Below the pieces are notes generated by a model. The model searched no databases, was not told the DNA's origin, and saw nothing but the letters and a program-made list of their open reading frames with translations. A stretch of 64,000 nt of DNA, taken from Burkholderia ubonensis. GTDB taxonomy: Bacteria; Pseudomonadota; Gammaproteobacteria; Burkholderiales; Burkholderiaceae. A program made the position numbers and the translations under genes. Numbering within the stretch: the first letter of the stretch is position 1; each line of letters starts with the position of its first letter. The stretch spans positions 62,001-126,000 of the forward strand of contig NZ_CP013421.1 of the NCBI RefSeq assembly GCF_001718695.1, in the 5' to 3' direction. This document shows positions 31,744 through 50,377 of this stretch, in pieces.

Positions 31744-33261
31744 CTACGCATGGCTTTCCGAATCGAGCCGCTTCACCGATTCCAGCGCGCGTGCACGCGC
31801 GCACTGATGATCGACGATCGGCATCGGATAGCTTCGCCCGAGCGTGACGGACGCGCGTTGCAACTGCTCGCGCGACGCGGCCCATGGCGCGTGGACGGTG
31901 TCTGCGGAAAGCTGCGCGAGCTCGGGCACCCAGCGACGCGTGTAGTCGCCGTGCGGATCGAACTTCTGCGCCTGCAGAACCGGATTGAAGATGCGGAAAT
32001 ACGGCGCCGCGTCGGCGCCGCTGCCCGACACCCACTGCCAGCTCGCGGGATTGCTCGCCTCGTCGGCATCGACCAGCGTATCCCAGAACCATGCTTCGCC
32101 CTGTCGCCAGTCGATCAGCAAGTGCTTCGACAGAAACGACGCCGCCACCATGCGCACGCGGTTGTGCATCCAGCCGGTATGCCACAGCTCGCGCATGCCG
32201 GCATCGACGAGCGGGTAGCCCGTGCGGCCCGTCTGCCACTTGCGCAGTGACTTCGCGTCGTCGCGCCACGGCATCGAATCGAACTGCCGGCGGAAATTGA
32301 CCTGATGAAGCGGCGCGAAGTGATACAGGAGGTGGTACGAGAATTCTCGCCAGCCGATTTCGCTGAGGAACTTGTTCAACGGCCCGTCCTTTGAGTCGAT
32401 GCCGCGCACGGTGTGCGCACTTCGCATTGCATCGGCCGCCGACAGCGTCGCGTACCAAACCTGCCGAACCGATATGTTGCCGAAGCGCAGATACGGCGAC
32501 AGCCGGCTCGTCGCGCGAGCGGCCGGAAAATCGCGCAGCGTCGGATAGTCGGACAGCGAATTCTCCAGGAATGCTTCGAGTTGATCGCTGGCGGCTTGCT
32601 CGCCGCACTGCCAGGTCTCACGCAGCCCGCCGGCCCAGTCGGGAGCCGACGGCTGCAGCTCGAGCTCGCGAAGCGTGCAGACGTGTGGCGTCGCGTGGGC
32701 TGGAACCGGAAAAAACCGGATGTGCGACGGCGCCGGCAGCGGAACCGGCGGGAAAAAATCGTCGCGCCGAGCGGCTCTCCAGTACGCGCTGAAGACCTGG
32801 AACGGCAGGCCTTCGCGCGTGGTCACCGTCCACGGTTCGCGCAGCAGGTGCCCGTTGAACGTCGACACGGCGATCCCGCGGTCGATCAAGTCTCTCTTGA
32901 TCGACGCATCGGTGCCGGTCTGCGCCTTCGCGTAACGCCGGTTCCAGACGACCATCGCCGCGCCGATCGCTGCGGCGAAACCGGTGATCGCTTCATGCTC
33001 GTTGCCGCGCAGCAGAATCAGCGAGCCGCCATGCGCCGCGAGCGCGTCGTCGAGTTTGCTCAGCGATTCATGGAGCCACCAGCGCTGCGCGCCGCCCATC
33101 GCACGACCGTGTTTCGGCGCGGCGTCGTGCACATACACGCAAACGACCGGGTGCCCGGTGTCGAGCGCATGCGTCAGCGCGGGGTTGTCGGCCAGCCGTT
33201 GGTCGTCGCGGAACCATACGACGACGGGGCGAGCTTCGTGCGGAAGGTCGGAGCGGGTCAT
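31744..33261 (-). CDS. phrB: Deoxyribodipyrimidine photolyase (CPD photolyase)
   Basis: A 505-residue photolyase that uses blue light, FAD and an antenna pigment to reverse cyclobutane pyrimidine dimers. The N-terminal antenna domain starts VVVWFRDDQRLADNPALTHA. The FAD-binding C-terminal domain contains LSPYLRFGNISVRQVWY (about 260-276), GWREFSYHLLYHF, TGYPLVDAGMRELWHTGWMH (about 360-379), NRVRMVAASFLSKHLLIDWRQGE and the SNPASWQWVSGSG block. Length is close to the usual 470-500. It lies next to the LitR-like regulator and a cryptochrome gene, suggesting light control. Confidence 0.96.
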   Translation of the reverse strand: MTRSDLPHEARPVVVWFRDDQRLADNPALTHALDTGHPVVCVYVHDAAPKHGRAMGGAQRWWLHESLSKLDDALAAHGGSLILLRGNEHEAITGFAAAIGAAMVVWNRRYAKAQTGTDASIKRDLIDRGIAVSTFNGHLLREPWTVTTREGLPFQVFSAYWRAARRDDFFPPVPLPAPSHIRFFPVPAHATPHVCTLRELELQPSAPDWAGGLRETWQCGEQAASDQLEAFLENSLSDYPTLRDFPAARATSRLSPYLRFGNISVRQVWYATLSAADAMRSAHTVRGIDSKDGPLNKFLSEIGWREFSYHLLYHFAPLHQVNFRRQFDSMPWRDDAKSLRKWQTGRTGYPLVDAGMRELWHTGWMHNRVRMVAASFLSKHLLIDWRQGEAWFWDTLVDADEASNPASWQWVSGSGADAAPYFRIFNPVLQAQKFDPHGDYTRRWVPELAQLSADTVHAPWAASREQLQRASVTLGRSYPMPIVDHQCARARALESVKRLDSESHA

Positions 33262-33573: not shown

Positions 33574-33727
33574 GCGGGCTCCGTTCGTTGGTTCATGCGT
33601 ATACGGCGGTGCGCGGCGAACGGATGCATCTCGTGCCGACACGAGCGGAACGCGCGCCTGCATCCGCCTGCGCTCCGGCTACGTATACGCGGGTATGCGA
33701 CCCGCGTGGTCACAATTGGAGATTTGC

Positions 33728-34787: not shown

Positions 34788-35762
34788 CTAGACCGACTTC
34801 GGCGCTTGCGCGGCCGCGTCCAGCCCTTCTTCGCGCAGGATGACGGAGAGTGCCGTTTCGAGCAATTCGGCGGCCCGATTCGCCGCGTCGCCGAGATGGC
34901 GGTGCAGCAGCGCATCGGCGGGCGAGCGCGACACGCATTCGTCGCTGTAGCGCTCGAACGCGCTGAGCTGCATGATCAGTTCGGACAGATGGCGCGGGCA
35001 TTCGCATTTGACCGTCGTCGACAAGCCGCTCAGCGACGCGAGCGTCGCTTCGTCGAAGCGGCGCTGCGTGCGCAGCCACAGCCCGCGCTCGGCGTCGTTC
35101 ACCTGTCGCGCCTTGACGACCGCCTGGGCGAGTTTCGAGATGATCGACGCCGAGTTGGTCTGGCCTTCCGTCGAGCGGAACAGCTCGAACCCGGACAGCC
35201 GCGCCAGCTCGACGGCCTCCGCCGTGCCGAACCCGTATATGACGGCCACCGCATGTGCATTGAGCGCTTGCGCCGCGCTGGCCAGTTGCGACACGACGTC
35301 TTCATGAAGCGACGTGGTCGTCGCGATCAGCGCATCGGCGGACGGACCGGTGTGCCGGCTCGCTTCGTCGATCGATTCGATGCGCGCCGCGATATGGATG
35401 CCCATGCGCTCGATAGCGGACGCCGAGATCGGCAACGCGCCGACGACGGCCAGGCTCACGCCCGTTTCGGGCAGCGCCGCGCCGCCGCGTGTATCGGTCA
35501 ACGACAACGCCTCGAGTTCGTCGCGGCTCAGGCTCGCGATCGAGCCGATCGCGTGGCCCTGGTTGACGAGGGCCTTTAGCAAACGAATCCGCTGCACGTC
35601 GTCGTCCGAGTACATCCGCTGCCCGGACGGCGTCTTCGGCGGCGCAACCACGCCATAGCGCCGCTCCCAAATCCTCAGCGTGGCTGCTGGCATGCGTGCC
35701 AGGCGCGCGGCCTCGCCGCTGCGATAGCGGTGCGGCGTATCGCGATCCTTGCGAGCGGACAT
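34788..35762 (-). CDS. litR: LitR-like MerR family regulator
   Basis: A 324-residue regulator. The N-terminal MerR winged helix is clear: YRSGEAARLARMPAATLRIW, ERRYGVVAPPKTPSGQRMYS, then DDVQRIRLLKALVNQGHAIG (about 12-75). The C-terminal region (about 100-220) has the fold pattern of cobalamin-binding-like LitR/CarH domains (SLAVVGALP, AVAVIYGFGTAEAVELARLS) but no DxHxxG cobalamin motif, so B12 sensing is doubtful. LitR regulators elsewhere control photolyases, carotenoids and lipid enzymes in light. It is divergent from the cryptochrome gene, and its promoter matches that of the HTH-less paralogue at 40542-41342. Confidence 0.88.
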   Translation of the reverse strand: MSARKDRDTPHRYRSGEAARLARMPAATLRIWERRYGVVAPPKTPSGQRMYSDDDVQRIRLLKALVNQGHAIGSIASLSRDELEALSLTDTRGGAALPETGVSLAVVGALPISASAIERMGIHIAARIESIDEASRHTGPSADALIATTTSLHEDVVSQLASAAQALNAHAVAVIYGFGTAEAVELARLSGFELFRSTEGQTNSASIISKLAQAVVKARQVNDAERGLWLRTQRRFDEATLASLSGLSTTVKCECPRHLSELIMQLSAFERYSDECVSRSPADALLHRHLGDAANRAAELLETALSVILREEGLDAAAQAPKSV

Positions 35763-35798
35763 CGGTGCTCTCCTGAAGTCGATGGCTGATGTATCAGG

Positions 35799-35843
35799 AT
35801 TTTACGCTGTTTGCCGGAAATTTGAAGCAGAAAAGTGATTCAA
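35799..35843 (-). promoter_or_regulatory. litR promoter with conserved upstream element
   Basis: Reading on the minus strand: element TTGAATCACTTTTCTGC (35827-35843), -35 TTCAAA (35821-35826), 16-bp spacer, -10 TAAAAT (35799-35804). The same arrangement occurs upstream of the second LitR-like gene, 24 of 28 bases from 35843 to 35816 being identical and the distance to the start codon differing by one base. It abuts the -35 box, where an activator or repressor of the MerR type could act. Confidence 0.7.
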
Positions 35844-36013
35844 TGTGCTCAATTTTGATCGGAAAGATGGTTCGTGAAGCGCATGCGCGGCTAGAATGTA
35901 TCGGTGCGGCGGGCGTTGTGCGCGAAGTTGTAAGTGAAGGATCGTGACGCATCCGGCGTCGCGATGCGCCCGCCTCGACACCCCATGAACGACAACCGAT
36001 CGCAAAGCATCCC

Positions 36014-37543
36014 ATGACCACCTTGAGGCTCGTTCTCGGCGACCAGCTCGACCCGCATCACCGCTGGTTCGCCGAGGTCCGGCCCGGCATCGTATACGCG
36101 CTGATGGAGATTCGGCAGGAGACCGACTACGTGCTTCATCACGCGCAGAAGCTCATTGCGGTGTTTGCGGCGATGTGCCGCTTCGCCGAGTTGCTGCGCG
36201 AGGCGGGGCACGTCGTCCACTACATCGGGATCGACGATCCGCTCAATCGCCAGGCCATTGCGGCGAACCTCGACATGCTGGCCGACCGCTACGGCGCACA
36301 TCGCATCGAGTATCTGCTGCCCGACGAGTGGCGCGTCGACCGGCAACTGCAGGCTTATGCGGCGTCGGCGCGCGTGCCGGTGCAAGTGCTCGATACGAAC
36401 CATTTCTACACCACGCGCGACGAAGTCGCGAGCCTGTTCGGCAACAGCCGCACGTGGGTCATGGACCGCTTCTATCGAAGCATGCGCGTACGCCATCGCG
36501 TGTTGCTCGACGCACAAGGGCGTCCCGCAGGCGGGCAATGGAACTACGATGCCGAAAACCGCGAGGCGTGGTCCGGTACGCCTGCCGAGCCGCCCGACTG
36601 GCGTCCGCGTCACGACCATCGCGCGCTGTGGAGCCGGATCGTGGCCGCCGGCGTGCGCAGCTTCGGCGCGCCGTCCGCCGACGACTTCCGCTGGCCGGTC
36701 GATCGCAGCGAGGCGCTCGCGTGCCTCGAGTCCTTCATCCGGCATGGGCTGCCTTTCTTCGGACGCTTTCAGGATGCGATGCACCGCGACGCGCGACGCC
36801 TGTTCCACTCGATGCTGTCGTTCGCCCTCAACGTCAAGATGTTGAATCCGCGCGAAGTCGTCGAGCGCGCGGAGCATGCGTATCGCACCGGCGCCGCGCC
36901 GCTGGCCGCGGTCGAAGGGTTCATCCGGCAGATTCTCGGCTGGCGCGAGTTCGTGCGCGGCGTGTACTGGGCGCGCATGCCGGGTTACGCCGACAGCAAT
37001 GCGTTCGGCCATCGGCGCGCGTTGCCGCATTGGTTCTGGAACGGCAGCACGCGCATGGCGTGCATGGCGCATGCACTGACGCAATCGCTCGACGCTGCGC
37101 ATGCGCACCATATCCAGCGACTGATGGTGATCGGCAACTTTGCGCTGCTGGCCGGGCTCGAGCCGCGTCAGGTGCATCAGTGGTATCTCGGCGTCTACAT
37201 CGATGCGTTCGAATGGGTCGAGCTGCCGAACACGCTCGGCATGAGCCAGTACGCGGATGGCGGCGCGATGGCGACCAAGCCGTACGTTTCCAGCGCCGCG
37301 TACATCAACCGGATGAGCAACTACTGCAAGGGCTGCGCGTACGACCATCGTGCGCGCACGGGCGAGCACGCGTGCCCGTTCAATGCGCTGTACTGGGATT
37401 TTTTCGACCGGCATCGCAGCGCGCTGCAACACAACCACCGGCTGTCGATCGTCTATCGGCAACTCGCGCGTTTCGACGACGAGGCGTTCGATGCGATCCG
37501 CGCGCAGGCGGAGTGCGTGGTGCGGGATATCGAGTCGCTGTAG
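36014..37543 (+). CDS. FeS-BCP type cryptochrome/(6-4) photolyase
   Basis: A 509-residue member of the bacterial cryptochrome/photolyase group with a 4Fe-4S cluster (relatives include PhrB of Agrobacterium and CryB of Rhodobacter). The N-terminal antenna domain begins LRLVLGDQLDPHHRWF. The FAD domain contains EGFIRQILGWREFVRG (about 305-320) and MVIGNFALLAGLEPRQVHQWYLGVY. Cysteines for the cluster are in NYCKGCAYD (about 436-444) and EHACPFNALYWDF (about 453-465). It may repair (6-4) lesions or sense light. It is divergent from litR, with the promoter region shared. Confidence 0.93.
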   Translation: MTTLRLVLGDQLDPHHRWFAEVRPGIVYALMEIRQETDYVLHHAQKLIAVFAAMCRFAELLREAGHVVHYIGIDDPLNRQAIAANLDMLADRYGAHRIEYLLPDEWRVDRQLQAYAASARVPVQVLDTNHFYTTRDEVASLFGNSRTWVMDRFYRSMRVRHRVLLDAQGRPAGGQWNYDAENREAWSGTPAEPPDWRPRHDHRALWSRIVAAGVRSFGAPSADDFRWPVDRSEALACLESFIRHGLPFFGRFQDAMHRDARRLFHSMLSFALNVKMLNPREVVERAEHAYRTGAAPLAAVEGFIRQILGWREFVRGVYWARMPGYADSNAFGHRRALPHWFWNGSTRMACMAHALTQSLDAAHAHHIQRLMVIGNFALLAGLEPRQVHQWYLGVYIDAFEWVELPNTLGMSQYADGGAMATKPYVSSAAYINRMSNYCKGCAYDHRARTGEHACPFNALYWDFFDRHRSALQHNHRLSIVYRQLARFDDEAFDAIRAQAECVVRDIESL

Positions 37544-37751
37544 GGCGGGTTGTGGTCGGGGCGTATGAAGGGGCGGCGGATGGGGAGCGCCGCTTGCGTC
37601 GAAATGCCGAAGTGCGCGGGCGCCGTGTGTTGCGCCCGTGTCGCATGTCGAGCACTGCCGTGGCGCCGCGCGATCGCTCGCCGCATGCGTTAAGTAGCAG
37701 AGAGCATCGCGGAATTGGCGCGCGCCTCACCCTCCGACGTTCACGAATCGA

Positions 37752-38807
37752 TCAACTATCGGAACTGGGTGTCTCAACGCGTGAATTCCGTGTGCCCAAC
37801 GCGTCGACCACGGCGCCGCCGAGCCCGCTGCCGCTCAACCATGCACCTTCGACCTTGCCGCCGCCCAGCCAGTCCCCGCACAGCCCGACGCCCGCCGTCG
37901 TCCGCCATGCAAAGCGGCCGTGCGTCGAGGCCGTGGCAGCGGCCGGCTCCGCATAGCGCCACCGATGGGCAGTCGCCGACTCGGCGCCAGCGCCCGTGAT
38001 GTCCCGAAACGCCGCCAACAATGCGTCGGTCACCCATTCGGCCCGTGCTTCCAGATGAGCGTGACTCCAGTCGGGCGTTGCATGCAGCACCCACGTGTCG
38101 ATGCCGGCGCGCCCGGGCTTGGACGTGTCGTTGGCGATCCAGCCGAGCGGCCCCGCATTGACGAAGGCCGCGTCGAAGCCGGCGTCCGGCAGCCCGCGGC
38201 ACTGCGCCATCACCGTCCACGTCGCGCGCATCTCGCTGCGCTGTGCGATGACGGCAAGACCCGGCTCCGCATGCCGCAAAAGCGGCACGGCCTGCGGCGC
38301 CGGGACGGCGACGATCACGGCGTCGTGGTGCGCGTCCAGTACGCCGTGCTCGGCCGACGTCGCGCGCCAGCAATCTCCGTCGCGGATCAACTCGACGATC
38401 GTCGTTTCGCAGAGCGTTCGAATGCCGGCCGACAGACGCTGCGCCGGCGCCGACATGCCCGGCACGCCGACGTACCGCAGCGCAGGCGCGAGCAACGCAC
38501 GCGGGCCGAGCGCGCCGATCGACGCCACGCGCGCCTCCCACGGGGCTGCTGCTCCACTTGCCACCCAGCGCGCTACTTCGGCGACGAACGCCGGATGTTG
38601 CGCGGTGAAATACGGCGCACCGTGATCGGCTTGCCAGAGCGCGGTACGGCGCGTACTCATGCGTCCGCCGACACCGCGGCTCTTTTCGTACACGGTCACG
38701 CGGTGACCCGCGTCGGCCAGCACGCGCGCGCAGGCCAGCCCCGCTATCCCGGCGCCGACGATAGCGATATGTGCCGATGAGTCGGAAAACGGCGGCATGT
38801 GATTCAT
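37752..38807 (-). CDS. FAD-dependent oxidoreductase (renalase/amine oxidase-like)
   Basis: A 351-residue flavoprotein with a Rossmann FAD motif at the start (IAIVGAGIAGLACARVLADAG), YEKSRGVGGRMSTR for the second phosphate region and a C-terminal FAD motif GVGLCGDWLGGGKVEGAWLSG. This layout is typical of renalase-like proteins. An ATG three codons downstream of the chosen start is possible. The substrate is unknown. It lies directly downstream of an ECF sigma gene (88 bp), so it probably belongs to the folE-sigma-FAD transcription unit in the light-response island. Confidence 0.87.
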   Translation of the reverse strand: MNHMPPFSDSSAHIAIVGAGIAGLACARVLADAGHRVTVYEKSRGVGGRMSTRRTALWQADHGAPYFTAQHPAFVAEVARWVASGAAAPWEARVASIGALGPRALLAPALRYVGVPGMSAPAQRLSAGIRTLCETTIVELIRDGDCWRATSAEHGVLDAHHDAVIVAVPAPQAVPLLRHAEPGLAVIAQRSEMRATWTVMAQCRGLPDAGFDAAFVNAGPLGWIANDTSKPGRAGIDTWVLHATPDWSHAHLEARAEWVTDALLAAFRDITGAGAESATAHRWRYAEPAAATASTHGRFAWRTTAGVGLCGDWLGGGKVEGAWLSGSGLGGAVVDALGTRNSRVETPSSDS

Positions 38808-38895
38808 CGTGGCAGCCCCATGCGTTGGGAGATCGCCGCAGCGCGTGCCGCATGGGCATCGGCACTCGACGTCGAACTTCTGCAATCGGGCTGGC

Positions 38896-39603
38896 TCATT
38901 GCTCGAGGTAAATCCTGAGCCGCAGCAGGCTGCGGCGAATCCAGCTCTTCATCGTGCCGAGCGGAACCTGCATGCGCTCGGCCAGCTCGGCATACGATGC
39001 GCCGCCGTGAAACGCTTCACGCAGCACGTAGGCTTGTCGCTCGCCGAGATGGGCGAGCCCGCGCTCCAGGCGCTGGCGTTCCTGGCTTGCCTGAGCGCCC
39101 GCGTCCGGTGTCGGGCCTTCGTCCGGTATCAGCAGCGCCTGCTCTTCGTCGAGCGGCGCGTCACGGTGCTGCCGGAGCCGATCGATGGTTCGATTGCGGG
39201 CGAGCGTCAGCAGCCATGTCATCGCGGTGCCGCGTTCGGCGTCGAACGCACCGGCGCGCCGCCATGCCGTCGTGAACACCTCCTGAAGCAGGTCTTCCGC
39301 TTCATGGCGGTCACGTATCATCCGCACGATCACGCCGTACAGCCGTGCCGACGTGAATCGGTACAGCTGCGCGAACGCCTGCTCGTCGCCGGCGGCGACG
39401 CGACACAGCAGGCTGTCGAGCGCCGCGTGCCAGACGGCTTGCTCGTCCGGTTCGCGCTGCGCCGTGTCGTCTGCGAACGCGTCGGCGCCTGCCGCATGCG
39501 ACCGGGAATGAGCGGCGCCGCGGCGTTGCTGTCTGGCCGAATGGAGCGGCTTCGCGCGCCCGTGCGCCGACGACGGGCGGAGTGACTCGTGCGAACAGTT
39601 CAT
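38896..39603 (-). CDS. ECF RNA polymerase sigma factor (orphan paralogue)
   Basis: A 235-residue ECF sigma factor. Region 2 spans about 78-145 (FAQLYRFTSARLYGVIVRMI, DLLQEVFTTAWRRAGAFD, TLARNRTIDRLRQHRD) and region 4 about 170-230 (YVLREAFHGGASYAELAERM, VPLGTMKSWIRRSLLRLRIY). An N-terminal Ser/Arg-rich tail of about 60 residues is extra. GGAGTTG precedes the ATG at 39603. It is closely similar to the sigma factor at 49592-50203, yet no anti-sigma gene is beside it, so control may be by transcription from a light-regulated promoter. Confidence 0.93.
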   Translation of the reverse strand: MNCSHESLRPSSAHGRAKPLHSARQQRRGAAHSRSHAAGADAFADDTAQREPDEQAVWHAALDSLLCRVAAGDEQAFAQLYRFTSARLYGVIVRMIRDRHEAEDLLQEVFTTAWRRAGAFDAERGTAMTWLLTLARNRTIDRLRQHRDAPLDEEQALLIPDEGPTPDAGAQASQERQRLERGLAHLGERQAYVLREAFHGGASYAELAERMQVPLGTMKSWIRRSLLRLRIYLEQ

Positions 39604-39716
39604 CTGCAACTCCGCATGCTGTGAGCTTCCTGCTTTTGCGCGTCGCGGTGCGAGCGGACGCCGATCATGAGTGAACACCGTGCCGGTGGATTCATTGCGC
39701 GTGGTTCCGTGCCGGC

Positions 39717-40448
39717 CTACGCGTCCTTGCCGGACAGAAGGGCAAGGAACTCGCGGCGAAGCGACGCGTCCGCGAGGAACTTGCCGCGCATCACGCTGTT
39801 GGTCATCTTCGCTTGGTCGTCCTTGGTGCCGCGCCAGTGCATGCAGAAGTGGTCGGCTTCGAGCACGACGGCAAGCCCGTCGGGCGCGATGCGCCGTTCG
39901 AGCAGGTCGGCGATCTGCTTGACCGCCTCCTCCTGAATCTGCGGGCGCGCCATGACCCAGTTCACGAGCCGGCCATACTTCGACAAGCCGATCAGATTCG
40001 ACGTGGCGCTCGGCAGCACGCCGATCCATATCCGCCCCATGATCGGGCAGAGATGATGCGAACACGCGCTGCGTACGCGCAGCGGGCCGACGATCAGCAG
40101 TTCGTCCAGCCGCTCGACGTTGGGGAACTCGGTGACGGGCGGCGGTGCCTCGTAACGGCCTGCAAACACTTCGCGGACGAACATCTTCGCGACGCGCCGC
40201 GCGGTGTCGCGCGTGTTGTGGTCGTGATCGACGTCGATGACGAGCGAGCGCAGCACCGCTTCCATCCGCTGTGCGACTTCGCTCTGCAGCGCGTCGAGCT
40301 CGCCGTCGCGCAGGTGCGCGGCGATGTTGTCGTTCGCATGAAAGCGCGCGCCCGCATGTTCGAGCCGACGACGAATCAGTTGCGACAGAGGAATGCCCTC
40401 GTCGATCGCGGTCAACGTGTGCTCGGGCGCGTCGATTACATTTCCCAT
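39717..40448 (-). CDS. folE: GTP cyclohydrolase I FolE
   Basis: A 243-residue enzyme converting GTP to 7,8-dihydroneopterin triphosphate, the first step to folate and other pterins. Zinc and catalytic motifs: VRSACSHHLCPIMGRIWIGV (about 124-143) and HFCMHWRGTKDD (about 205-216), with the GLSKYGRLVNWVM block between. The N-terminus is about 40 residues longer than short FolE forms. A second folE outside housekeeping clusters often serves pterin cofactor supply; here methenyl-tetrahydrofolate is a photolyase antenna in many species, so supply for the two photolyases is a reasonable inference. Confidence 0.95.
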   Translation of the reverse strand: MGNVIDAPEHTLTAIDEGIPLSQLIRRRLEHAGARFHANDNIAAHLRDGELDALQSEVAQRMEAVLRSLVIDVDHDHNTRDTARRVAKMFVREVFAGRYEAPPPVTEFPNVERLDELLIVGPLRVRSACSHHLCPIMGRIWIGVLPSATSNLIGLSKYGRLVNWVMARPQIQEEAVKQIADLLERRIAPDGLAVVLEADHFCMHWRGTKDDQAKMTNSVMRGKFLADASLRREFLALLSGKDA

Positions 40449-40541
40449 TTCGGTTCGTTTCTCGAGGTTGGATGGTGGTGCGGCAGATCGTGATCCGGTG
40501 CGATGCCGTGCGTGCCCGAAGAGGTATCGGCCGCGCGTGGC

Positions 40542-41342
40542 TCAGGTGCGAACGCGCGCGCGTGCCTGCCGACCGGGCCGGCCCGCGCGCTCGCGACGGC
40601 GGCGTGCGTGCGATGTGCGGTGTCGCGCGGCAGGCGTCGTGTCGTCGCGATGCCGCATGCGCGGCAACTCCGGTTCGCTGTCGGTTCGTTCCGGCGCGAA
40701 CGTGGCGGCGACCGCGCGTTTCAGTTTCGCCAGCACGAACTGACGGTCGACCTGACCGTCGGCCGCACGGAACAGATCGAAGCCGGCGACACGCAGCAGC
40801 TCGACGGCGCGCACGCTGCCGTATTCGTAGACGACCGCGGCCGCACGGACGCGACGCCCGTGCGCCAGCGACACGAGGAGCTGCGCAACGTCGCTGTGCA
40901 GCCACGTGACGTGCGCGACGAATGAATCGACGAATAGCTCCGGATGCCGCAGCGCCTGGAACACCGACTCGGCGCGCTCGCTTATGCGCAATCCGGGCGG
41001 CGCGGCCGGCGCGACCGGCATGTCGGCGGCGAACAGGTCGCCCATCACCAGCAGCGTCGGATAGGCGGGCGTACCGAGGTCGGCTTCGGCGAGCGTCGTT
41101 CCGTCAGTGCGGACGAACGTCGCTTCGGCGCGCGCGCATCGGTCGATCGCCTGTGGTTGCGGGCGACGACGGCGTTCCCCGCGCGTCAGCGCCGCGAGCC
41201 GCTGGCGCGAAGCGGGTTCGTCGGCGTTCGCGGCGGGACGGTGCGAGCGCGCGCGCGCGGTGGCGGCGGCCGCACGCATCCGGCCCGCGGCCGCACGGAT
41301 GGCGAGACGGCTCAGCTTGATGTGGTCGTTGCGTGTTGGCAC
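40542..41342 (-). CDS. LitR-like protein lacking the MerR DNA-binding domain
   Basis: A 266-residue protein whose middle (about 95-200) is homologous to the C-terminal domain of the LitR-like regulator at 34788: LLVMGDLFAADMP against LAVVGALP, WLHSDVAQLLVSL against SLHEDVVSQLASA, and AAVVYEYGSVRAVELLRVAG against VAVIYGFGTAEAVELARLSG. The N-terminal 90 residues are basic and Ala/Arg-rich with no MerR helix-turn-helix, and no DxHxxG cobalamin motif is present. The C-terminal 50 residues are also Arg-rich. The start is a GTG with GGGAGG five bases upstream. It may modulate LitR by forming mixed oligomers. Confidence 0.75.
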   Translation of the reverse strand: MPTRNDHIKLSRLAIRAAAGRMRAAAATARARSHRPAANADEPASRQRLAALTRGERRRRPQPQAIDRCARAEATFVRTDGTTLAEADLGTPAYPTLLVMGDLFAADMPVAPAAPPGLRISERAESVFQALRHPELFVDSFVAHVTWLHSDVAQLLVSLAHGRRVRAAAVVYEYGSVRAVELLRVAGFDLFRAADGQVDRQFVLAKLKRAVAATFAPERTDSEPELPRMRHRDDTTPAARHRTSHARRRRERAGRPGRQARARVRT

Positions 41343-41379
41343 GGGGCCTCCCTTGGGTCGATACCTGCGTCACGGCTCG

Positions 41380-41424
41380 ATTGTATGCAAATTTTCGGGA
41401 ATGTGAAGCAGAAAAGCGAGTCAA
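41380..41424 (-). promoter_or_regulatory. Promoter of the HTH-less LitR-like gene, twin of the litR promoter
   Basis: On the minus strand: element TTGACTCGCTTTTCTGC (41408-41424), -35 TTCACA (41402-41407), 16-bp spacer, -10 TACAAT (41380-41385). Element, spacer length and distance to the start codon (55 against 54 bases) match the litR promoter. The two genes are therefore predicted to be switched on together. Confidence 0.72.
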
Positions 41425-41635
41425 GAGTTGTGAAAATGCGAATTTAGTGTGTCATTGCCTCTGCGGTGTGGGGTATTCGTGTGAAATTATGCGTGTAATA
41501 TGGACTATCGAGCCGAATGTGCTTCAATTTCGCGTCTATTGAAACGGAATTATGAGTCGCTATTCGTGATGAATCTGCGCCAAACGATGCGATTCATACG
41601 GATGCTAGCCAATGGGATGGGGTGTGTTGGGCGTC

Positions 41636-41667
41636 TGACTCAAGATATGACTCAGATAGATGAGTCA
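41636..41667. promoter_or_regulatory. Cluster of TGASTCA palindromes
   Basis: TGACTCA occurs at 41636-41642 and 41648-41654, and its reverse complement TGAGTCA at 41661-41667, 12 and 13 bp apart. Related GATTCAT/GGCTCAA words follow. The spacing is a little over one DNA turn. The litR-type element contains TTGA(A/C)TC, so a related binding protein is possible. Confidence 0.45.
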
Positions 41668-41884
41668 ATGGCTCAAATTCGATTCATCCAGCCGCAGTGA
41701 TGCGCTCGACCTCCTGCTGCTGGCCCATCTCGACCGGACACCGACGGGGACAGCCGGCGTGCAGTTCTTTCGACTTGCGTCAACCGCGGAGAACGCACGG
41801 CGCGCATGGGCCAACAGCGCTCAACCGCGCGACGAGGTTCACCCCTGATTGGCCCGGCGCTATGCGCGACGAGCCAGCGCGACC

Positions 41885-42148: not shown

Positions 42149-42685
42149 TCAGCGCGCATCGTCGCCGAGCAACTGGCGGCGCAACGACGTCGCGCGTGTG
42201 CGCGGATCGAGCCAGATCTCGAAGAACGCGCGCGCGAACGCCGGATCGGCCACTTCCGCGGTGAGGCGACCGTTCGTATAGAAGCGTGCGCCGCGCTCGG
42301 GCAGATACACGCCGCAGAGCACGTCGCCGCGCGACACGTCGGTGAACGCGCGGGCGATGTCGCGTCGCCAGGCGTCGCGCGTCGCGGCGGGCAGCGGCGC
42401 TGCCGCGAGGCGCTCGATTTCATCCATGCCGGTCGCTACGAGCCGCTCGCCCGTCACGTCGTGGCGATAGGCCAGCGACAACGCGAACGGCGTGTCGAAC
42501 GCGCCGGGCGCGCGACGCGCCCACAGCTGCGCGTCGTACAGACAGATCGCGAACACGCAGAAGCGGCCCGAGCCGATCAGCCGCGCCGACGCGACATCGT
42601 CGACGCAATTTGCATCGGCGGCGCCCGGCATCGCGAACGCCGCCCACGCCGCAACGGCCGCGAGGGCCGCGAACCGGCGCGTCAT
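42149..42685 (-). CDS. Chalcone-isomerase-like exported protein
   Basis: A 178-residue protein with a cleavable signal peptide (RFAALAAVAAWAAFAMPGAADA) and the bacterial chalcone isomerase-like fold pattern: LIGSGRFCVFAICLYDAQLW (about 36-55), FALSLAYRHDVTGERL and DARAFFEIWLD-like FARAFFEIWLDPRTRA near the C-terminus. The family's true function in bacteria is not chalcone cyclisation, and related genes sit in light- or singlet-oxygen-induced lipid clusters. It is one base from the upstream Cfa-like gene, so it is in the same operon. Confidence 0.85.
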   Translation of the reverse strand: MTRRFAALAAVAAWAAFAMPGAADANCVDDVASARLIGSGRFCVFAICLYDAQLWARRAPGAFDTPFALSLAYRHDVTGERLVATGMDEIERLAAAPLPAATRDAWRRDIARAFTDVSRGDVLCGVYLPERGARFYTNGRLTAEVADPAFARAFFEIWLDPRTRATSLRRQLLGDDAR

Positions 42686-42686
42686 G

Positions 42687-43904
42687 TCAGCGGCCCGCCG
42701 ACACGACGAAATGCATCACGTCGGTACGCCGCTCGGCAAATCCAGCTTCGCAATAGGCGAGGTACAGCCGCCACGTGCGAATGAAGGTCTCGTCGAATCC
42801 TTGCGCGCGCACCAGATCGGCGTGTGCATCGAACGTCGCCCGCCACGTGCGCAGCGTGCGCGCGTAGTCGTCGCCGAACGCGTGCACCGGTGCGGCGGCG
42901 AGTCCGGCGCGGCGCGCTGCGTCGACGAAGCGCTCGGCGCTCGGCAACATCCCGCCGGGAAAGATGAATTCGCGGATGAAGTCGCTCGACGCGCGGTACG
43001 CCTCGAATTGCGACTCGGCGATCGTGATCGATTGGATCAACGCGCGTGCACCGGGCTTCAGACGCCGCACGAGCACGTCGAAGTACACGGGCCAGAACTT
43101 TTCGCCGACGGCTTCGAACATTTCGATCGACACCGCCGCATCGTATTGGCCGTCGACGTCGCGATAGTCGCGCAATTCGATCGTGACGAGATCGGCCAGC
43201 CCCTCGCGCGCAACGCGTTCGCGAGCCAGCGAATATTGTTGCTGCGAGATCGTCACGCCGTGCACGCGGACGCCCTGACGCGCCGCGTGTACGGCGAAGC
43301 CGCCCCAGCCGCAGCCGATCTCGAGCACGCGCATGCCGGCGCGCAGGCCGAGCGTCGCGACGATGCGCTGATACTTCGCCGCCTGCGCGTCGGCGAGCGG
43401 GCGGCGGTCGTCGCCGTCGAAGCATGCGCTCGAATAGGTCCACGTATCGTCGAGCCACAACCGGTAGAAGTCGTTGCCGAGGTCGTAATGCGCGTGGATG
43501 TTGCGGCGGCTGCCCGCGCGCGTATTCGCGCGCAGCCGATGGCGCAGCGCGTACCACACGCGTGCGAAGGGGCCGCCCGTCACGGTCTTGGCGATCACCG
43601 GCTGATTGCGGATCGCGACGCGCAGCAGCGCGACCGGATCGGGCGTGTCGACCCAGCCGGCGCGATACGCGTCGGCAAAGCCGATGTCGCCGGCGCGCAG
43701 GATCGCGCGGCAGGCGCGCCAGTCGCGGATCTGCAGCGTCGCGGCCGGCTGGCGGTGCGGATCGCCGAACACGTGTTGTGCGCCTTCGGGCGTCACGAGC
43801 GTGAGATGGCCGTCGTGGATGCGTCGCAGCAGCGCGATGAACAACCGGGCCGACAGCGGCAGCGCCGCTTGCGAGGCGGCAGAGAGCAGGCGCAGCAGGG
43901 TCAT
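42687..43904 (-). CDS. Cyclopropane-fatty-acid synthase-like methyltransferase (1)
   Basis: A 405-residue SAM-dependent methyltransferase of the Cfa family acting on unsaturated acyl chains of membrane phospholipids. Motifs: NIHAHYDLGNDFYRLWLDD (about 134-152), TYSSACF, the SAM loop RVLEIGCGWGGFAVHAA (about 191-207), TISQQQ, AVSIEMFEAVGEKFW (about 256-270) and EFIFPGGMLPS. In Rhodobacter a Cfa-like enzyme of a comparable cluster makes methylated fatty acids rather than cyclopropanes; which product is made here cannot be told. Its ATG overlaps the stop of the DUF1365 gene (ATGA). Confidence 0.9.
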   Translation of the reverse strand: MTLLRLLSAASQAALPLSARLFIALLRRIHDGHLTLVTPEGAQHVFGDPHRQPAATLQIRDWRACRAILRAGDIGFADAYRAGWVDTPDPVALLRVAIRNQPVIAKTVTGGPFARVWYALRHRLRANTRAGSRRNIHAHYDLGNDFYRLWLDDTWTYSSACFDGDDRRPLADAQAAKYQRIVATLGLRAGMRVLEIGCGWGGFAVHAARQGVRVHGVTISQQQYSLARERVAREGLADLVTIELRDYRDVDGQYDAAVSIEMFEAVGEKFWPVYFDVLVRRLKPGARALIQSITIAESQFEAYRASSDFIREFIFPGGMLPSAERFVDAARRAGLAAAPVHAFGDDYARTLRTWRATFDAHADLVRAQGFDETFIRTWRLYLAYCEAGFAERRTDVMHFVVSAGR

Positions 43905-44755
43905 GGGCGGGCCTCGTGATCGGACGTCGCCGGGCGGCCGCGTGACGACGCGTCCGGCGAGCGGGACAGGGACGAATCGGCGCCGGCCGAATGGCCCGGC
44001 GGCGTCTTGCCGTAGAACGGCACGCGCGCGAGCCACAGCCGCAGCGCATGCCAATGGATGCGGATGACGACGTTCACCGCGTTCAGCGGCTGGCGAGCCA
44101 GCGCGCGCCACGCGCGTGCGGCGGTCAGCGGTTCGGCGCGCATGCCGAGCGCCGTGCGCAGCAGCAGGCCGTCGTCGTCGCGATAGTCGATCGCGACGCT
44201 CAGGCGGTCGCCACGCTGCCGCACGCGAAACGCATAACTGCCGACCACCTCGCAAAACGGCGAGACGTGAAACGTCTTTCGGCAGACGAGGGCGGTGCCG
44301 GCGTCGATCGGCGCGTGATGCAGCGCCGTCAGCAGATAGCCGTGGTACGCGCCGAAGGTGTTGCGCACGTCCGCGTAGAGCGCGCGCAGCCGGCCCGCGC
44401 GGTCGTAGCAGTACCAGAAGCTGACCGGGTTGAACGCGTATCCGAAGATGCGCGGGATCGTCTGCAGCCAGATCGGGCCGTCGGCCGGAATGCCGGCCCG
44501 CGCGAGCAGATCGCGCATCCATGGCCCGAGCGGCCGCCCGTCGCGCGGGCCGTAGTCGCGCGATGCGAGCGCGAGCGGGCGCCAGCGGTCGACGCCGAAC
44601 CAGCGGCCGTCGATCTCGTCGAGCCGTTCGACGTCGCAGCAGACCTGGAAGATCGGATACGTGAACGCATGGCGCACCGGCCGTAACCGTTCGTGCATCA
44701 CGTGGCCGACCAGAAGCCGCGCGGCATGGCCGTCGCGGGCGAACGGCGCGTTCAT
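43901..44755 (-). CDS. DUF1365 family protein
   Basis: A 284-residue protein with family blocks VGHVMHERLRPVRHAFTYPI (about 16-35), RIFGYAFNPVSFWYCYD (about 101-117) and NTFGAYHGYLL (about 131-141). DUF1365 genes are almost always beside an FAD oxidoreductase and a Cfa-like methyltransferase, as here, but the role is unproven. The C-terminal 30 residues are disordered. The start overlaps the FAD gene stop and the stop overlaps the cfa start, showing tight coupling. Confidence 0.92.
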   Translation of the reverse strand: MNAPFARDGHAARLLVGHVMHERLRPVRHAFTYPIFQVCCDVERLDEIDGRWFGVDRWRPLALASRDYGPRDGRPLGPWMRDLLARAGIPADGPIWLQTIPRIFGYAFNPVSFWYCYDRAGRLRALYADVRNTFGAYHGYLLTALHHAPIDAGTALVCRKTFHVSPFCEVVGSYAFRVRQRGDRLSVAIDYRDDDGLLLRTALGMRAEPLTAARAWRALARQPLNAVNVVIRIHWHALRLWLARVPFYGKTPPGHSAGADSSLSRSPDASSRGRPATSDHEARP

Positions 44756-46062
44756 GGGCGCGCCCAGACCGGCGCGATGCCGAAGTCGGCGGCGACGCGC
44801 AACGCCGATTTCAGCCCGTCCTCATGAAATCCGTAGCCCGTCCACGCGCCCGCGAACCACGTGTTGCGCCGTCCCTGCAGCGCGGGCAGACGTTGCTGCG
44901 CGTCGACGGCCGCGAGATCGAGCAGCGGATGCTCGTAGTCGTAGCGCCCCAACTGCGTGCCTGGCGCGGGCTCGTCGACCGGATTCAGCGTGACGACCAC
45001 CGGCGAACGGAACGGCAGCGGCTGCAACTGGTTCAGCAGATAGCTGACGCACACTGGCGCTGCGTCGCCGCCGCCCGGCGCGGAGCGGCCGCTCAGGTAG
45101 TTCCAGGCCGACCACACGCGCTTGCGGCGCGGCAGCAGCGCCGTATCGGTATGCAGCACCGCGACGTTGTGCTGATAGCGCACGGCGCCCAGCACGTCGC
45201 GCTCGGCGTTGCTCGGGTCGGCGAGCAGCCGCAGGCTCGTCGGCGCGTGGCAGGCGAGCACGACCGCATCGAAGCGCTCGTGACCGGCCGCGTCGGTGGC
45301 GACCATGACGTAGCCGTCGTCGCGCCGGATCGCGCGCACCGGCGTGCCGACGCGCACGTCGTCGAGCGTCGCGGCGATGCGCTCGACGTACTGCCGCGCG
45401 CCGCCGGCGACCGTGCGCCACGGCGGGCGGTTGTTGACCTGCAGCAGCGCGTGATTCAGGCAGAAGCGCAGGAACATCGCCGCCGGAAAACGCAGGATGT
45501 CGTTGGCCGCGCTCGACCAGATCGCGGCCGCCATCGGCAGCAGATAGTGATGCTGGAACGGCGCGCCGTAGCGGCCGGCGGTGAGCAGTTCGCCGACCGA
45601 CAGACGCTGGCGGTGCGCCGCTTCGAGATGATCGCGCGCGGCCGCGTTGAAGCGCAGGATGTCGCGCAGCATGCCGAGAAACGTCGGCGAAAACAGGTTG
45701 CGGCGTTGCGCGAATACCGTGTTGAGATTGCTGCCGGCCCATTCGAGCCGGCCGCCGTCGACCGACACCGAGAACGACATGTCGGTCGCATGTGCCGCCA
45801 CGCCGAGTTCGTCGAACAGCGCGATCAGGTTCGGATAGGTGCGGTCGTTGAATACGAGGAACCCCGTGTCGACGGGGTGGCGCGCTCCGTCCAGTTCGAC
45901 GTCGACCGTGTGCGTGTGGCCGCCCAGATAGTCGGCGGATTCGAACAGCGTCACGCGGTGACGGCGGGCCAGCAGATAGGCGCTTGCGAGGCCCGCGATG
46001 CCGGCGCCGACGACGGCGATTCGTCGTCCGCGCGGCAGCGAGCCGATGTATTGCGGGTGCAT
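44752..46062 (-). CDS. FAD-dependent oxidoreductase (desaturase-like, amine-oxidase fold)
   Basis: A 436-residue flavoprotein. It starts with the FAD motif RIAVVGAGIAGLASAYLLAR and ESADYLGGHTHTVDVELDG, and ends with NTWFAGAWTGYGFHEDGLKS, characteristic of the NAD/FAD-binding proteins paired with DUF1365 and Cfa. A comparable protein in Rhodobacter is a fatty-acid desaturase in furan fatty acid synthesis, which makes a lipid substrate likely. The 4-base overlap with DUF1365 and the lipocalin gene upstream place it in the sigma-factor operon. Confidence 0.9.
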   Translation of the reverse strand: MHPQYIGSLPRGRRIAVVGAGIAGLASAYLLARRHRVTLFESADYLGGHTHTVDVELDGARHPVDTGFLVFNDRTYPNLIALFDELGVAAHATDMSFSVSVDGGRLEWAGSNLNTVFAQRRNLFSPTFLGMLRDILRFNAAARDHLEAAHRQRLSVGELLTAGRYGAPFQHHYLLPMAAAIWSSAANDILRFPAAMFLRFCLNHALLQVNNRPPWRTVAGGARQYVERIAATLDDVRVGTPVRAIRRDDGYVMVATDAAGHERFDAVVLACHAPTSLRLLADPSNAERDVLGAVRYQHNVAVLHTDTALLPRRKRVWSAWNYLSGRSAPGGGDAAPVCVSYLLNQLQPLPFRSPVVVTLNPVDEPAPGTQLGRYDYEHPLLDLAAVDAQQRLPALQGRRNTWFAGAWTGYGFHEDGLKSALRVAADFGIAPVWARP

Positions 46063-46154
46063 CGCGAAGGGTCTCCGTCAGTCACAATAGCGCAATCGGA
46101 AATGACATGTCCGGATATACGTGGCGCGCGCGCGTGCGGATGCACGGCAAGCCG

Positions 46155-46769
46155 TCAATCGCGCCGGCCGGGCGACGCGAAGCCGGGTTGGCCGAGCTGG
46201 TCGGGCGTTTGCGGCACGCGCCTGAAGCGCGACGTGTCGTAGCCCATCGCGTCGAGCCGCGCGAGCAGAGACCGATAGGTGGCGTCGTCCATGGTCGGCT
46301 CGCGCGAGAAGATCCAGCCGAGCGTCTTGCCCGGGTAGCCGAGGATCGTGTAGCGATAGTCGGCGTCGACATACAGCGTCAGCTGCGTGACGTACACCGG
46401 CCAGAACAGCCGCAGGCGCCATTCGCCGCCGCCGCTGCCGGGCTTGACCGAATCGACGAACCGGTAGCGCGTCTCGGGTCGATCGAAGCCGCCTTTGCGG
46501 CCGACGAACGCGTCGTCGATCCGACCGTCTTCGCGTAGCCGCCATTCGGCCCGACTGCCGACGAAATCGCGTTCCGCGAAATACGGAATGTTCGCGATCA
46601 CGTACCAGCGGCCCATGTAGCGCGGCAGGTCGACGGGAACGGTCGACAGCGGAACGCCGGCGCGCGGATTCGGGTTCGGCGGAGCGTCGGAGCAGCCTGC
46701 GGCGCCGAGCGCGAGAGTCATCGCCATCGCCATCGCGACGGCCACGCGACGCACCGCGCCGTGCGACAT
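46155..46769 (-). CDS. blc: Lipocalin (Blc-like) lipoprotein
   Basis: A 204-residue outer-membrane lipocalin. The signal peptide ends with the lipobox LGAAGC (Cys at about 26). The lipocalin signature is YMGRWYVIANIPYFAERDFV (about 51-70), and later blocks include GEWRLRLFWPVYVTQL and YRYTILGYPGKTLGWIFSRE. Blc-type lipocalins bind fatty acids or lysophospholipids. It lies eight bases after the second Cfa-like gene, so it is in the operon and may handle modified lipids. Confidence 0.93.
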   Translation of the reverse strand: MSHGAVRRVAVAMAMAMTLALGAAGCSDAPPNPNPRAGVPLSTVPVDLPRYMGRWYVIANIPYFAERDFVGSRAEWRLREDGRIDDAFVGRKGGFDRPETRYRFVDSVKPGSGGGEWRLRLFWPVYVTQLTLYVDADYRYTILGYPGKTLGWIFSREPTMDDATYRSLLARLDAMGYDTSRFRRVPQTPDQLGQPGFASPGRRD

Positions 46770-46777
46770 GACGGGCC

Positions 46778-47878
46778 TCACGCGTGCCCCCGGCGCTTGT
46801 CGAACAGATAATGGGCGACGCCCCATTCCTGCCCGCCGGCATAGCCGAACAGCTCGGCGACGGCCATGTAGAACATTCGCCAGCGCTGGAACCAGACGCG
46901 CGCGTCGGCGCCATAGACGGTGTCGAAAATCGGCATGATCCGGTCGCGCGCCGCGTCGAGCGACGCGAGCCACTGGTTCGCCGTGCGCGCGTAGTGCGTG
47001 CCGTCGAGCCACCATTGGCGGGCGATGCGCACGTCGTCCTGGAACCGCAGCAGCAGATCGGCCGACGGCATCGTGCCGCCGGTGAAGAAATGGCGCGACA
47101 TCCAGTCGGTGTCGTCGCGCACCGCGAAGTGATAGGCGAGCAGCTTGTGCGCGAAGATGTGCACGAACAGCTTGCCGTCGTCGCGCATCCAGCGCGCGAT
47201 CTTCGCGAGCAGTTGCCCGTAGTTCTTCATGTGCTCGAACATCTCGATCGACAGCACGCGGTCGAAGCCGGCGTCGTCGGCGTCGAAATCGAAGTCGACC
47301 ACGTCGCCGGTCACGATGCGCAGATTGGTCAATCCGCGCCGCGCCGAACATTGCTCGATGAACAGCCGTTGGCCGTGCGAGTTCGACAGGCCGACGATCT
47401 GCGCGTGCGGATAGCGTTCGGCGAGCCACAGCGACAGCGAGCCCCAGCCGCAGCCGAGGTCGAGAATGCGCTGGCCGTCCGCGAGCTGGGCGCGCTCCAC
47501 GTACAACTCGAGCATCGCGTCCTCGGCCTGCGGGAGCGTTTCGGTGCCGCGCGGGTAATAGCCGCACGAATACTTGAGCCGCGGGCCGAGATGCGCCTCG
47601 AAGAACGCGCCGGGCACCTCGTAGTGCTGCGTGTTCGCTGCTTGCGTGTCGATCGCGATCGGGCTCGCGCTCAGTTCGCGCACCAGCGCGTCATGGGCCG
47701 CCGCTCGCCCTTCGCCGTCGTAAGCATGTTCGGCGCGCAGGCGGTCGCGCATCAGCGAGCGCATTCCGGCGCGGATCAGCGGGTCCGGCAGCCAGCCGCG
47801 CTCGCAACAGCGGATCAGCCAGGAGTCGTCGGGTGCCGGCAGCGTGGCCGGCGACGGTGGCGAGGTGGTAGCGGTCAT
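46778..47878 (-). CDS. Cyclopropane-fatty-acid synthase-like methyltransferase (2)
   Basis: A 366-residue Cfa-family methyltransferase of the shorter type. Motifs: [20 protein letters not shown] (about 83-102), KYSCGYY, the SAM loop [20 protein letters not shown] (about 137-156), [25 protein letters not shown] (about 204-220) and [13 protein letters not shown]. It is diverged from the 42687 paralogue, so the operon has two distinct lipid methyltransferases. The start overlaps the end of the DUF1295 gene. Confidence 0.9.
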
Positions 47879-48708
47879 CAGCGTGAGCTCCGGTCTTCGG
47901 GGTGATCGGTCGGCGCGGCGGAAGTGCCGCGCATCGGCCTGGGCGGCCACGGCACGAGCGCGCTGGTCGTGCGCATGTAGTCGCGGTAGCCCGGCCGGGT
48001 TTGCACGAGACGCGCTTCGAGCAGCGGCAAGCCGGATATCTTGACCAGCAGCACGGCCATCAGCAGCGGCGGCAGCAGCGTCAGCCAGCCCCACGGCATC
48101 GCGATCGCCAGCGCCGTGTACGCGAGCCAGTGCACGCACTCGAAAAAGTAGTTGGGGTGCCGCGAATAGCGCCACCAGCCGACGCGACAGACCTGGCCGC
48201 GGTGGCCGGGATCGGCGAGGAAGCGCGCGAGCTGCCGGTCGGCGGCCGTCTCGCCTGCCACGGCGGCGATCCAGATCGCGACCGCGGCGGCAAGCGCCGC
48301 CCCCGACGGCGCTTCCGCGCTATAGGCGGGGACGAAGAACGCGATCGACAGCAACATCGAGATCAGCGCTTGCAGCTGGAACAGCCAGAACATGTTGCGC
48401 GGCGCGGCGTCGCCCCATTGCTCGCGGAACCGGCGATAGCGCGGATCTTCCGGCTGCCCGCGATTGCGCCGCCACAGATGCTGCGCGAGCCGCAGGCCCC
48501 AGACGCCGCCGCCGATCGCGACGAGCGCGCGATTCGCGGCGAGGCCGGTGCCGAGCGCTGCGACGAACACGGCTACGCCGCCGAGCGTCGCGGCCCAGAC
48601 GGGGTCGATCATTGCGGCGTTGCGGGAATGCAATTGTTCGATCCATACCGCCGTGAACGACAGGAACAGACCGATGAAAGCGAGCAGGGCAACGGCGACG
48701 GCGGGCAT
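47878..48708 (-). CDS. DUF1295 (steroid 5-alpha-reductase-like) membrane protein
   Basis: A 276-residue integral membrane protein with about six helices and the C-terminal reductase signature [21 protein letters not shown] (about 178-198). The family includes NAD(P)H-dependent reductases of lipids and steroids. In this operon it may reduce or isomerise an acyl-chain double bond; that is inference. It overlaps the Cfa-like gene and follows the anti-sigma gene by about 155 bp. Confidence 0.9.
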
Positions 48709-48863
48709 ACGGGCTCCGAGGACGCGATGTCTTCGATATACGGAGCCGTGGGCGGAACGGATGCAGCAGGCAGGATGCAGCGCGGTTCGGCGGTGTCGGG
48801 AAGGGGCGGGTGAGACGTAGTCGCGCGCCGCGCGGTTGCGCGGCGTGCGTCATGTGGTGCGCG

Positions 48864-50203: not shown

Positions 50204-50377
50204 GCGGAGAAAATGGCGCGCAGAGCCATGGCTTGAATGTGGAGCGAAATATAGCACTGTCGGACGTACCGGTTGAGCGATCGCGGTCGACACGCCGCCT
50301 GTCGTGCAGGCCGGCGGGCGTCGCAGGATCTTCAGTCAGATACGAGCGTCGCGCGCGTGCAGATGCAGCCGTCATTC

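Follow-up and report, generated by a model that had tools for sequence, protein, structure and literature searches.

A 64,000-nucleotide stretch of the Burkholderia ubonensis genome (RefSeq assembly GCF_001718695.1, contig NZ_CP013421.1, positions 62,001 to 126,000 of the forward strand; the window throughout) carries a light-response cluster in which two promoters share one design, namely that of litR, encoding a MerR-type regulator, and that of a gene for a LitR-like protein without the helix-turn-helix (HTH) domain. Taking the evidence as a whole, we consider it highly probable that a LitR operator lies over the -35 of both promoters, that LitR represses them in the dark and is released in light, and that an extracytoplasmic function (ECF) sigma factor passes the response on to a second tier of genes. 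Sites, conservation, genome-wide rarity and co-occurrence with litR and sigma genes were computed, while for LitR as the binder, its repression, its release by light and the reading of the second motif by a sigma factor we draw on earlier work and on inference.

A first-pass annotation of this DNA had pointed out two 28-mers (35816-35843 and 41397-41424) with 24 of 28 bases identical, which stand 54 (litR) and 55 (HTH-less gene) bases from the start codon. Direct comparison confirmed these figures, and also that the flanks are unalike, with 23 of 100 bases in common upstream and 18 of 53 downstream; beyond this pair, the litR copy shares no more than 18 of 28 positions with any 28-mer of the window. 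The predicted boxes were located at both promoters (Table 1), with TAMAAT as the -10 lying 16 bp past TTCAMA as the -35. The element had been described as directly adjoining the -35, and its position near this box holds, but the two are not merely adjacent, as the right half, TGCTTCA, includes the first four of the six -35 bases. We therefore read the 28-bp design as a putative sigma-70-type promoter whose -35 would be covered by a LitR operator, predicted to consist of two near-palindromic TGANTCA-type half-sites of 7 bases each, 6 apart and centred near -40. A ATGTGCTTCAATTT-like word further upstream, proposed as another common part, proved not to be conserved, being different already in the litR promoter of the nearest relative (locus L091), and we rejected it as a shared element; before the HTH-less gene the word is a single half-site within a separate array (41521-41686).

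The whole genome (6,684,845 bases, 3 contigs) was then searched for TTGAMTCRCTTTTCTGCTTCAMA with up to three mismatches, which returned two matches, the two promoters themselves, and none for the reversed control. The same pattern gave 2 matches in the window, against a mean of 0.00 and a maximum of 0 in 100 shuffles. Since the element occupies only two places in the genome, it does not occur at random there, an outcome that the first-pass annotation had named as evidence against its prediction.

Within the genus, litR is present in 12 of 65 genomes (E 1e-40 or better), and the element, at up to three mismatches, likewise in 12, 11 of which also carry litR (Fisher p 1.6e-10, not corrected for kinship). 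Genome G017 has one 3-mismatch match and no litR, and in G062 litR is accompanied by a diverged element (14 of 20) whose arms TGAATCA and GCTTCA are intact; G003 holds an additional 3-mismatch match on a contig other than that of its litR. When sites were aligned, taking the best match to the 20-base core within 170 bases of the gene, the right end of the site lay 59-64 bp before the start codon at 13 of 13 litR copies and at 10 of 10 HTH-less genes found. The core scored 17-20 of 20 at 11 of the 13 litR copies and 17-19 at all 10 HTH-less genes, and the -10 (TACAAT, TAAAAT and close variants), 16 bases past the -35, is conserved across species in both promoter groups. In three litR-bearing genomes the HTH-less gene was not found; two of them, G015 and G028, nevertheless carry the site ahead of folE. 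Of the window genes queried, litR alone among regulators was recovered from every one of the 11 other genomes fetched. An operator matrix was also built from the sites themselves; because it then finds the sites it was built from, its scores are no test of them. The site of a second litR copy, in G029, has a degenerate right arm and reaches 14 of 20. The same genome contains a second, decayed partial light cluster (L102; contig C12, 56000-70000), in which the litR copy is in pieces, with stops reported.

LitR homologues (E 1e-35 or better) occur in 58 of 398 genomes of the family and in 6 of 25 genera including the own genus, which contributes 12 genomes. Outside the genus we used the promoters of all 64 homologues listed: half-site patterns were chosen after looking at 18 of them and then fixed, and the 46 fetched later were scored with the same patterns. 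Six-base half-sites were detected in 43 of these 46 held-out promoters (shuffle mean 12.3, largest 23), TGANTCA in 18 (mean 3.5, largest 10) and the 20-bp dyad in 6 (mean 0.10, largest 2). Half-sites are concentrated in the 250 bases before the gene, with 81 in 11,500 bases versus 24 in 56,435 bases further upstream. Across all 64 promoters, the commonest spacing of facing pairs is the 14-bp step of the Burkholderia operator (9 of 27 pairs), that of the third orientation 28 bp (8 of 27) and that of same-strand pairs 11 bp (17 of 33), where the 11-base pairs are not independent because many, judged by eye, come from one genus. The co-occurrence with litR, the fixed position and the half-sites in other genera support the earlier prediction of one regulator for both promoters, which is most likely LitR.

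The HTH-less gene had been named as the second target, and this holds with the extension that it is not a target alone: the promoter leads a gene run consisting of the HTH-less gene, folE, the ECF sigma gene ecfA and a flavoprotein gene. Because folE and an ECF sigma gene thus lie behind it, this promoter points to a second tier of regulation. Upstream of ecfB, a second ECF sigma gene, an alignment of relatives contains a conserved TGMATC-N17-CGTATC; we read the ECF word by eye from this alignment and from the photolyase region and then tested it genome-wide. TGCATC-N16-18-CGTATM has six genome matches, five of them in the cluster, against 2 for the reversed control, and the CGTAT-ending form has 5 matches in the window (shuffle mean 0.07, largest 1). 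In nine full-cluster genomes 35 of 42 matches to the TGCATCC form lie inside the cluster (placed by eye), and in G015, G028 and G062, where the sigma homologue is located elsewhere, 2 of 3, 1 of 3 and 2 of 4 matches, respectively, fall within ~2.3 kb of it. The cluster has a common promoter motif before the candidate target genes, as in a LitS-type regulon, and either ecfA or ecfB could read it. The direct LitR regulon probably comprises the two promoters, with the other light genes reached through the ECF sigma factor. A search for exact 5-mer pairs, as common -35/-10-like words upstream of the cryB-like, photolyase, ecfB and hydrolase genes, gave nothing convincing, partly because a further reading frame separates the photolyase from its promoter in several relatives. 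Two litR-less genomes carry pairs of ECF words 1.6 kb apart (G014:C5:1499482 and 1501128; G038:C14:170923 and 172514), the same distance as separates the DUF1295 promoter from that of ecfB in the window, and the sigma tier may exist without LitR.

In the mechanism that we propose, LitR, perhaps as a CarH-like tetramer, would occupy both promoters in the dark and exclude RNA polymerase, and light would release it. Transcription of litR (autoregulation) and of the HTH-less gene, folE and the ECF sigma gene, together with the flavoprotein gene, would follow, and the ECF sigma factor would then drive the TGCATC-N16-18-CGTATM promoters before the photolyase, hydrolase, fatty-acid and second sigma genes. 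By analogy with related regulators, dark repression by LitR with autoregulation would be the simplest mechanism.

Several observations weigh against this interpretation. The inverted repeat is imperfect, with 12 of 20 self-complementary positions in O1, the predicted operator of litR, and 8 of 20 in the weaker O2, that of the HTH-less gene. Each of them also fits a 13-bp direct repeat (8 of 13 and 9 of 13); because both repeat readings fit O1 and O2, the sequence is compatible with an inverted as well as with a direct arrangement of LitR subunits. A dyad near -40 also fits the position of a class II activator. Outside the genus, the 20-bp dyad appears in only 6 of the 46 held-out and 7 of the 18 first-look promoters, so that mostly the half-sites recur, and the promoters within both sets are related to one another. 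In G062 no other queried gene was found within the 20 kb fetched around its litR. Turning to the second tier, it is proximity alone that links the sigma factors to the motif. The 53 litR-less genomes contain 81 matches to the ECF word, ~1.5 each, against 7 for the reversed control in all 65; for this reason the word is not specific alone and has other uses or conserved chance copies.

We weighed three explanations that would replace repression by LitR. The one that fares best, which we still regard as improbable, assigns the element to a different regulator, which may be a second repressor or may activate from -40. The usual place of a class II activator is indeed where the dyad is centred, but the element tracks litR across the genus, half-sites of the same type recur in the promoters of LitR homologues in other genera, and no regulator other than litR among the window genes queried was found in all 11 other genomes. 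It is very unlikely that the likeness is a leftover of duplication, with the HTH-less gene derived from litR and its promoter kept. The two proteins do share a domain (~39% identity over 106 residues); however, the promoter flanks are unalike, and the element was kept although the HTH-less protein has diverged, that of the window sharing only 42-44% identity with its counterparts in the seven other genomes outside the nearest relative. Furthermore, in G015 and G028, in which no HTH-less gene was detected, the element is still present before folE, an argument that is weaker if the gene was lost there. Least likely of all, the element would contain no operator and be simply an ECF promoter or a strong sigma-70 promoter preceded by an A/T-rich stretch: it does include the -35, and TTGACT/TTGAAT resembles a -35, but by eye no -10 lies 15-19 bp past TTGAMT whereas TAMAAT lies 16 bp past TTCAMA, the cluster has another word as its ECF motif, and an occurrence at just two places in the genome is not what one expects of an ordinary promoter word.

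A further possibility, additional to repression by LitR and not exclusive with it, is that the HTH-less protein, co-induced by light, modulates LitR as part of a hetero-oligomer or as a CarS-like anti-repressor and is not an enzyme. We put this forward tentatively and rate it somewhat below an even chance, and the idea that the protein is a LitR partner is a guess. In its favour, the protein has a LitR domain without the HTH, its gene is the first past the operator in 9 genomes and at the second copy of G029, and the reading frame is intact in 10 of 10 copies, with a ratio of non-synonymous to synonymous substitution rates of 0.22-0.63 (0.03-0.22 for litR). Judged by these ratios, the protein is evolving fast, under weak constraint, and this speed, like the three litR-bearing genomes in which the gene was not found, speaks against such a role. 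Structure prediction lends no fold-based support, since the AlphaFold models were poor (mean predicted local distance difference test score 43.4 for LitR and 48.8 for the HTH-less protein) and no fold search was based on them. CarS of Myxococcus is described as an anti-repressor (PMC8156234).

The sequence of LitR itself allows a comparison with known systems. Its N-terminus matches PF13411 (E 4.1e-18, residues 13-78), and residues 13-70 align with residues 27-84 of Thermus thermophilus CarH (5c8d), the PDB match being restricted to that part. No B12-binding Pfam family was detected in LitR at E 1e-3, and LitR does not have the B12-binding C-terminal domains of class I. Its C-terminus is without similarity to known domains and the named relatives are Burkholderia species, as in class III, namely B. 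pseudomultivorans, B. ambifaria, B. territorii, B. anthina and B. arboris. The gene content of the cluster also agrees with the class III list (folE2, cfaB, litS, phrB2 and cryB), and we take the window cluster to be the gene set of the class III LitR cluster of B. multivorans. In a 2018 study, Sumi et al. reportedly found binding of B. multivorans LitR to the litR and folE2 promoters, weakened by ultraviolet-A irradiation, and a dependence of the phrB2 and cfaB operons on the sigma factor LitS. This LitR/LitS system has in common with ours the genus, a MerR-type HTH without a B12-binding domain, a sigma-mediated second tier, a neighbourhood of folE, ECF sigma, photolyase/cryptochrome and cfa genes, and the litR and folE2 promoters, which are the two found here. 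Given that reported binding, the system, the regulator and its two targets are already known.

The Burkholderia LitR of class III is described as having a C-terminus without similarity to any known functional domain and an absorption spectrum that changes with light (PMC9758184). The class II proteins of Pseudomonas, PplR1 and PmlR2, are likewise MerR-type light repressors with a site over the -35, site 1 of PmlR2 covering this box and blocking RNA polymerase, and their regulon includes phrB, folE, cryB and fatty-acid genes (PMC9758184). They differ in having their own site, T(G/A)TACA-N12-TGTA(C/T)A, and a short LOV protein as light sensor (PMC9758184). With up to two mismatches, this site has no match at either of our promoters; at three mismatches there is one, at 41384-41407, and none at litR. 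Allowing up to three mismatches, the class II pattern has 21 matches across the window, where 7.3 were expected and no shuffle exceeded 16. TGC[A/G]TA occurs 12 bases past the -35 hexamer in 18 of 19 tallied promoters, including the 41384-41407 match, with the litR promoter of the window as the exception; the spacing is that of the class II LitR operator, and LitR may make an additional contact with this word over the -10. PAS-type domains among the 40 window open reading frames covered by the Pfam scan were limited to a PAS_4 in a histidine kinase (26171-28408). CarH of Thermus and Bacillus and CarA/CarH of Myxococcus belong to the same HTH family and also place their operator over the promoter, CarA and CarH binding over the -35 and repressing in the dark (PMC8156234). 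CarH differs in its operator of three or four tandem 11-bp units, nAnnTnnACAn, and in its AdoB12 (adenosylcobalamin) chromophore (PMC8156234). Such units were not found at our two promoters, where the best three tandem units carry 5-8 mismatches in 15 positions. Some genera outside Burkholderia do show 11-bp same-strand repeats, but of a different word.

The operator word and the sigma motif were not found in the open-licence literature searched, which excludes Sumi et al. 2018, and both words may be new. Joining these results, a class III-type LitR would read a half-site of its own, TGANTCA, distinct from the class II TGTACA and from the ACA units of CarH. Within one family two layouts of this half-site would exist, a 20-bp inverted pair in this genus, in g11 and, far upstream, in a few g24 genomes, and 11-bp same-strand repeats for the most part in genus g24 (by eye), so that the architecture changed and the word was kept; together with TGCATC-N17-CGTAT it would form the two-word promoter code of a photoprotection cassette that is also found on a conjugative plasmid. 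We regard the chances of this joint reading as evenly balanced. An operator word would make the direct LitR regulon readable from the sequence as two promoters, one of them leading to the sigma factor that probably switches the rest, and it opens to tests how a B12-less light repressor grips DNA and whether a layout can change without a change of word. The sigma word provides a list of candidate output genes.

The features of the cluster are collected in Table 1. Its lipid and fatty-acid genes encode a chalcone-isomerase-like protein, two CMAS methyltransferases, a DUF1365 protein, an amine oxidase, a lipocalin and a DUF1295 protein, and an alpha/beta hydrolase gene is also part of the cluster.

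Table 1. Genes, promoter boxes and predicted regulatory sites of the light cluster (window coordinates)
Feature	Coordinates	Strand	Remarks
litR	34788..35762	-	presumed repressor of both promoters; MerR-type HTH, no B12-binding Pfam domain
LitR operator O1	35823..35842	-	predicted; TGAATCA-CTTTTC-TGCTTCA, two half-sites overlapping litR -35
-35 of litR	35821..35826	-	TTCAAA
-10 of litR	35799..35804	-	TAAAAT (most relatives TACAAT)
LitR operator O2	41404..41423	-	predicted; TGACTCG-CTTTTC-TGCTTCA, overlaps -35 of HTH-less gene/folE/ECF sigma group
-35 of HTH-less gene	41402..41407	-	TTCACA
-10 of HTH-less gene	41380..41385	-	TACAAT
Array of 8 LitR-type half-sites	41521..41686	.	upstream of HTH-less gene; perfect TGACTCA-N6-TGAGTCA at 41648-41667
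HL, HTH-less LitR-like protein	40542..41342	-	266 aa; ~39% identical to LitR residues 110-215 (106 residues)
folE-type GTP cyclohydrolase I	39717..40448	-	
ecfA, ECF sigma factor	38896..39603	-	candidate LitS; start codon picked by eye
FAD-dependent oxidoreductase (flavoprotein)	37752..38885	-	NAD_binding_8/Amino_oxidase
Photolyase-related gene (DPRP)	36014..37543	+	cryB-like, divergent from litR
phrB-like photolyase/cryptochrome	31744..33261	-	
ecfB, second ECF sigma factor	49592..50293	-	
RskA-type anti-sigma gene	48864-49607		follows ecfB
Lipid/fatty-acid genes	42149..48708	-	cfaB-type genes of the cluster
ECF-sigma promoter motif	33600..33628	-	TGCATC-N17-CGTATA, phrB-like side
ECF-sigma promoter motif	33659..33687	+	alpha/beta hydrolase gene side
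ECF-sigma promoter motif	46116..46144	-	before amine-oxidase-like gene (44752-46062)
ECF-sigma promoter motif	48737..48765	-	before DUF1295 gene (47878-48708)
ECF-sigma promoter motif	50339..50367	-	before ecfB (49592-50293)

The region 41430-41700 upstream of the HTH-less gene contains 8 half-sites, compared with a shuffle mean of 1.18 and a maximum of 6, and 0 of 1000 shuffles reach 8; among the loci scanned, equal density was seen only in the genome of the window and its closest relative (L091). An exact search for TGANTCA-N6-TGANTCA gave a single genome match, the perfect pair of this array, and with one mismatch five genome places, O1 among them, against 0 for the reversed control. As a pattern for other sites in the same genome we also tried TGAATCNNNTTNNNGCTTCA with up to three mismatches, which gave 213 matches; the loose pattern is unusable because the reversed control gives 105. 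A 2-mismatch TGAATCNNNTTNNNGCTTCA place that also resembles the spacer (G000:C1:240970) was rejected, as it sits within an open reading frame. At loci L092-L095, half-site clusters are located upstream of the flavoprotein gene where this does not lie directly behind the sigma gene (e.g. L093:11526-11776). A promoter-like stretch, GATGGTTCG...CTAGAATG, is found at 35866-35898 before the photolyase-related gene, divergent from litR, and is conserved, without the ECF word, in several relatives.

The occurrence of both words on a B. anthina plasmid (NZ_CP071828.1) suggests that a complete light response, with its own regulation, can be passed between species as one cassette. The plasmid has 271 kb, is typed as conjugative and carries the whole cluster (L186; 205995-237072), including five ECF words and two LitR sites; a gene of the phage integrase family lies ~5 kb away. 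Over 20 kb this cluster is 99.9% identical to a 4.8-Mb contig of G030 (L094), and over 21.9 kb it is 98.7% identical to a B. arboris replicon.

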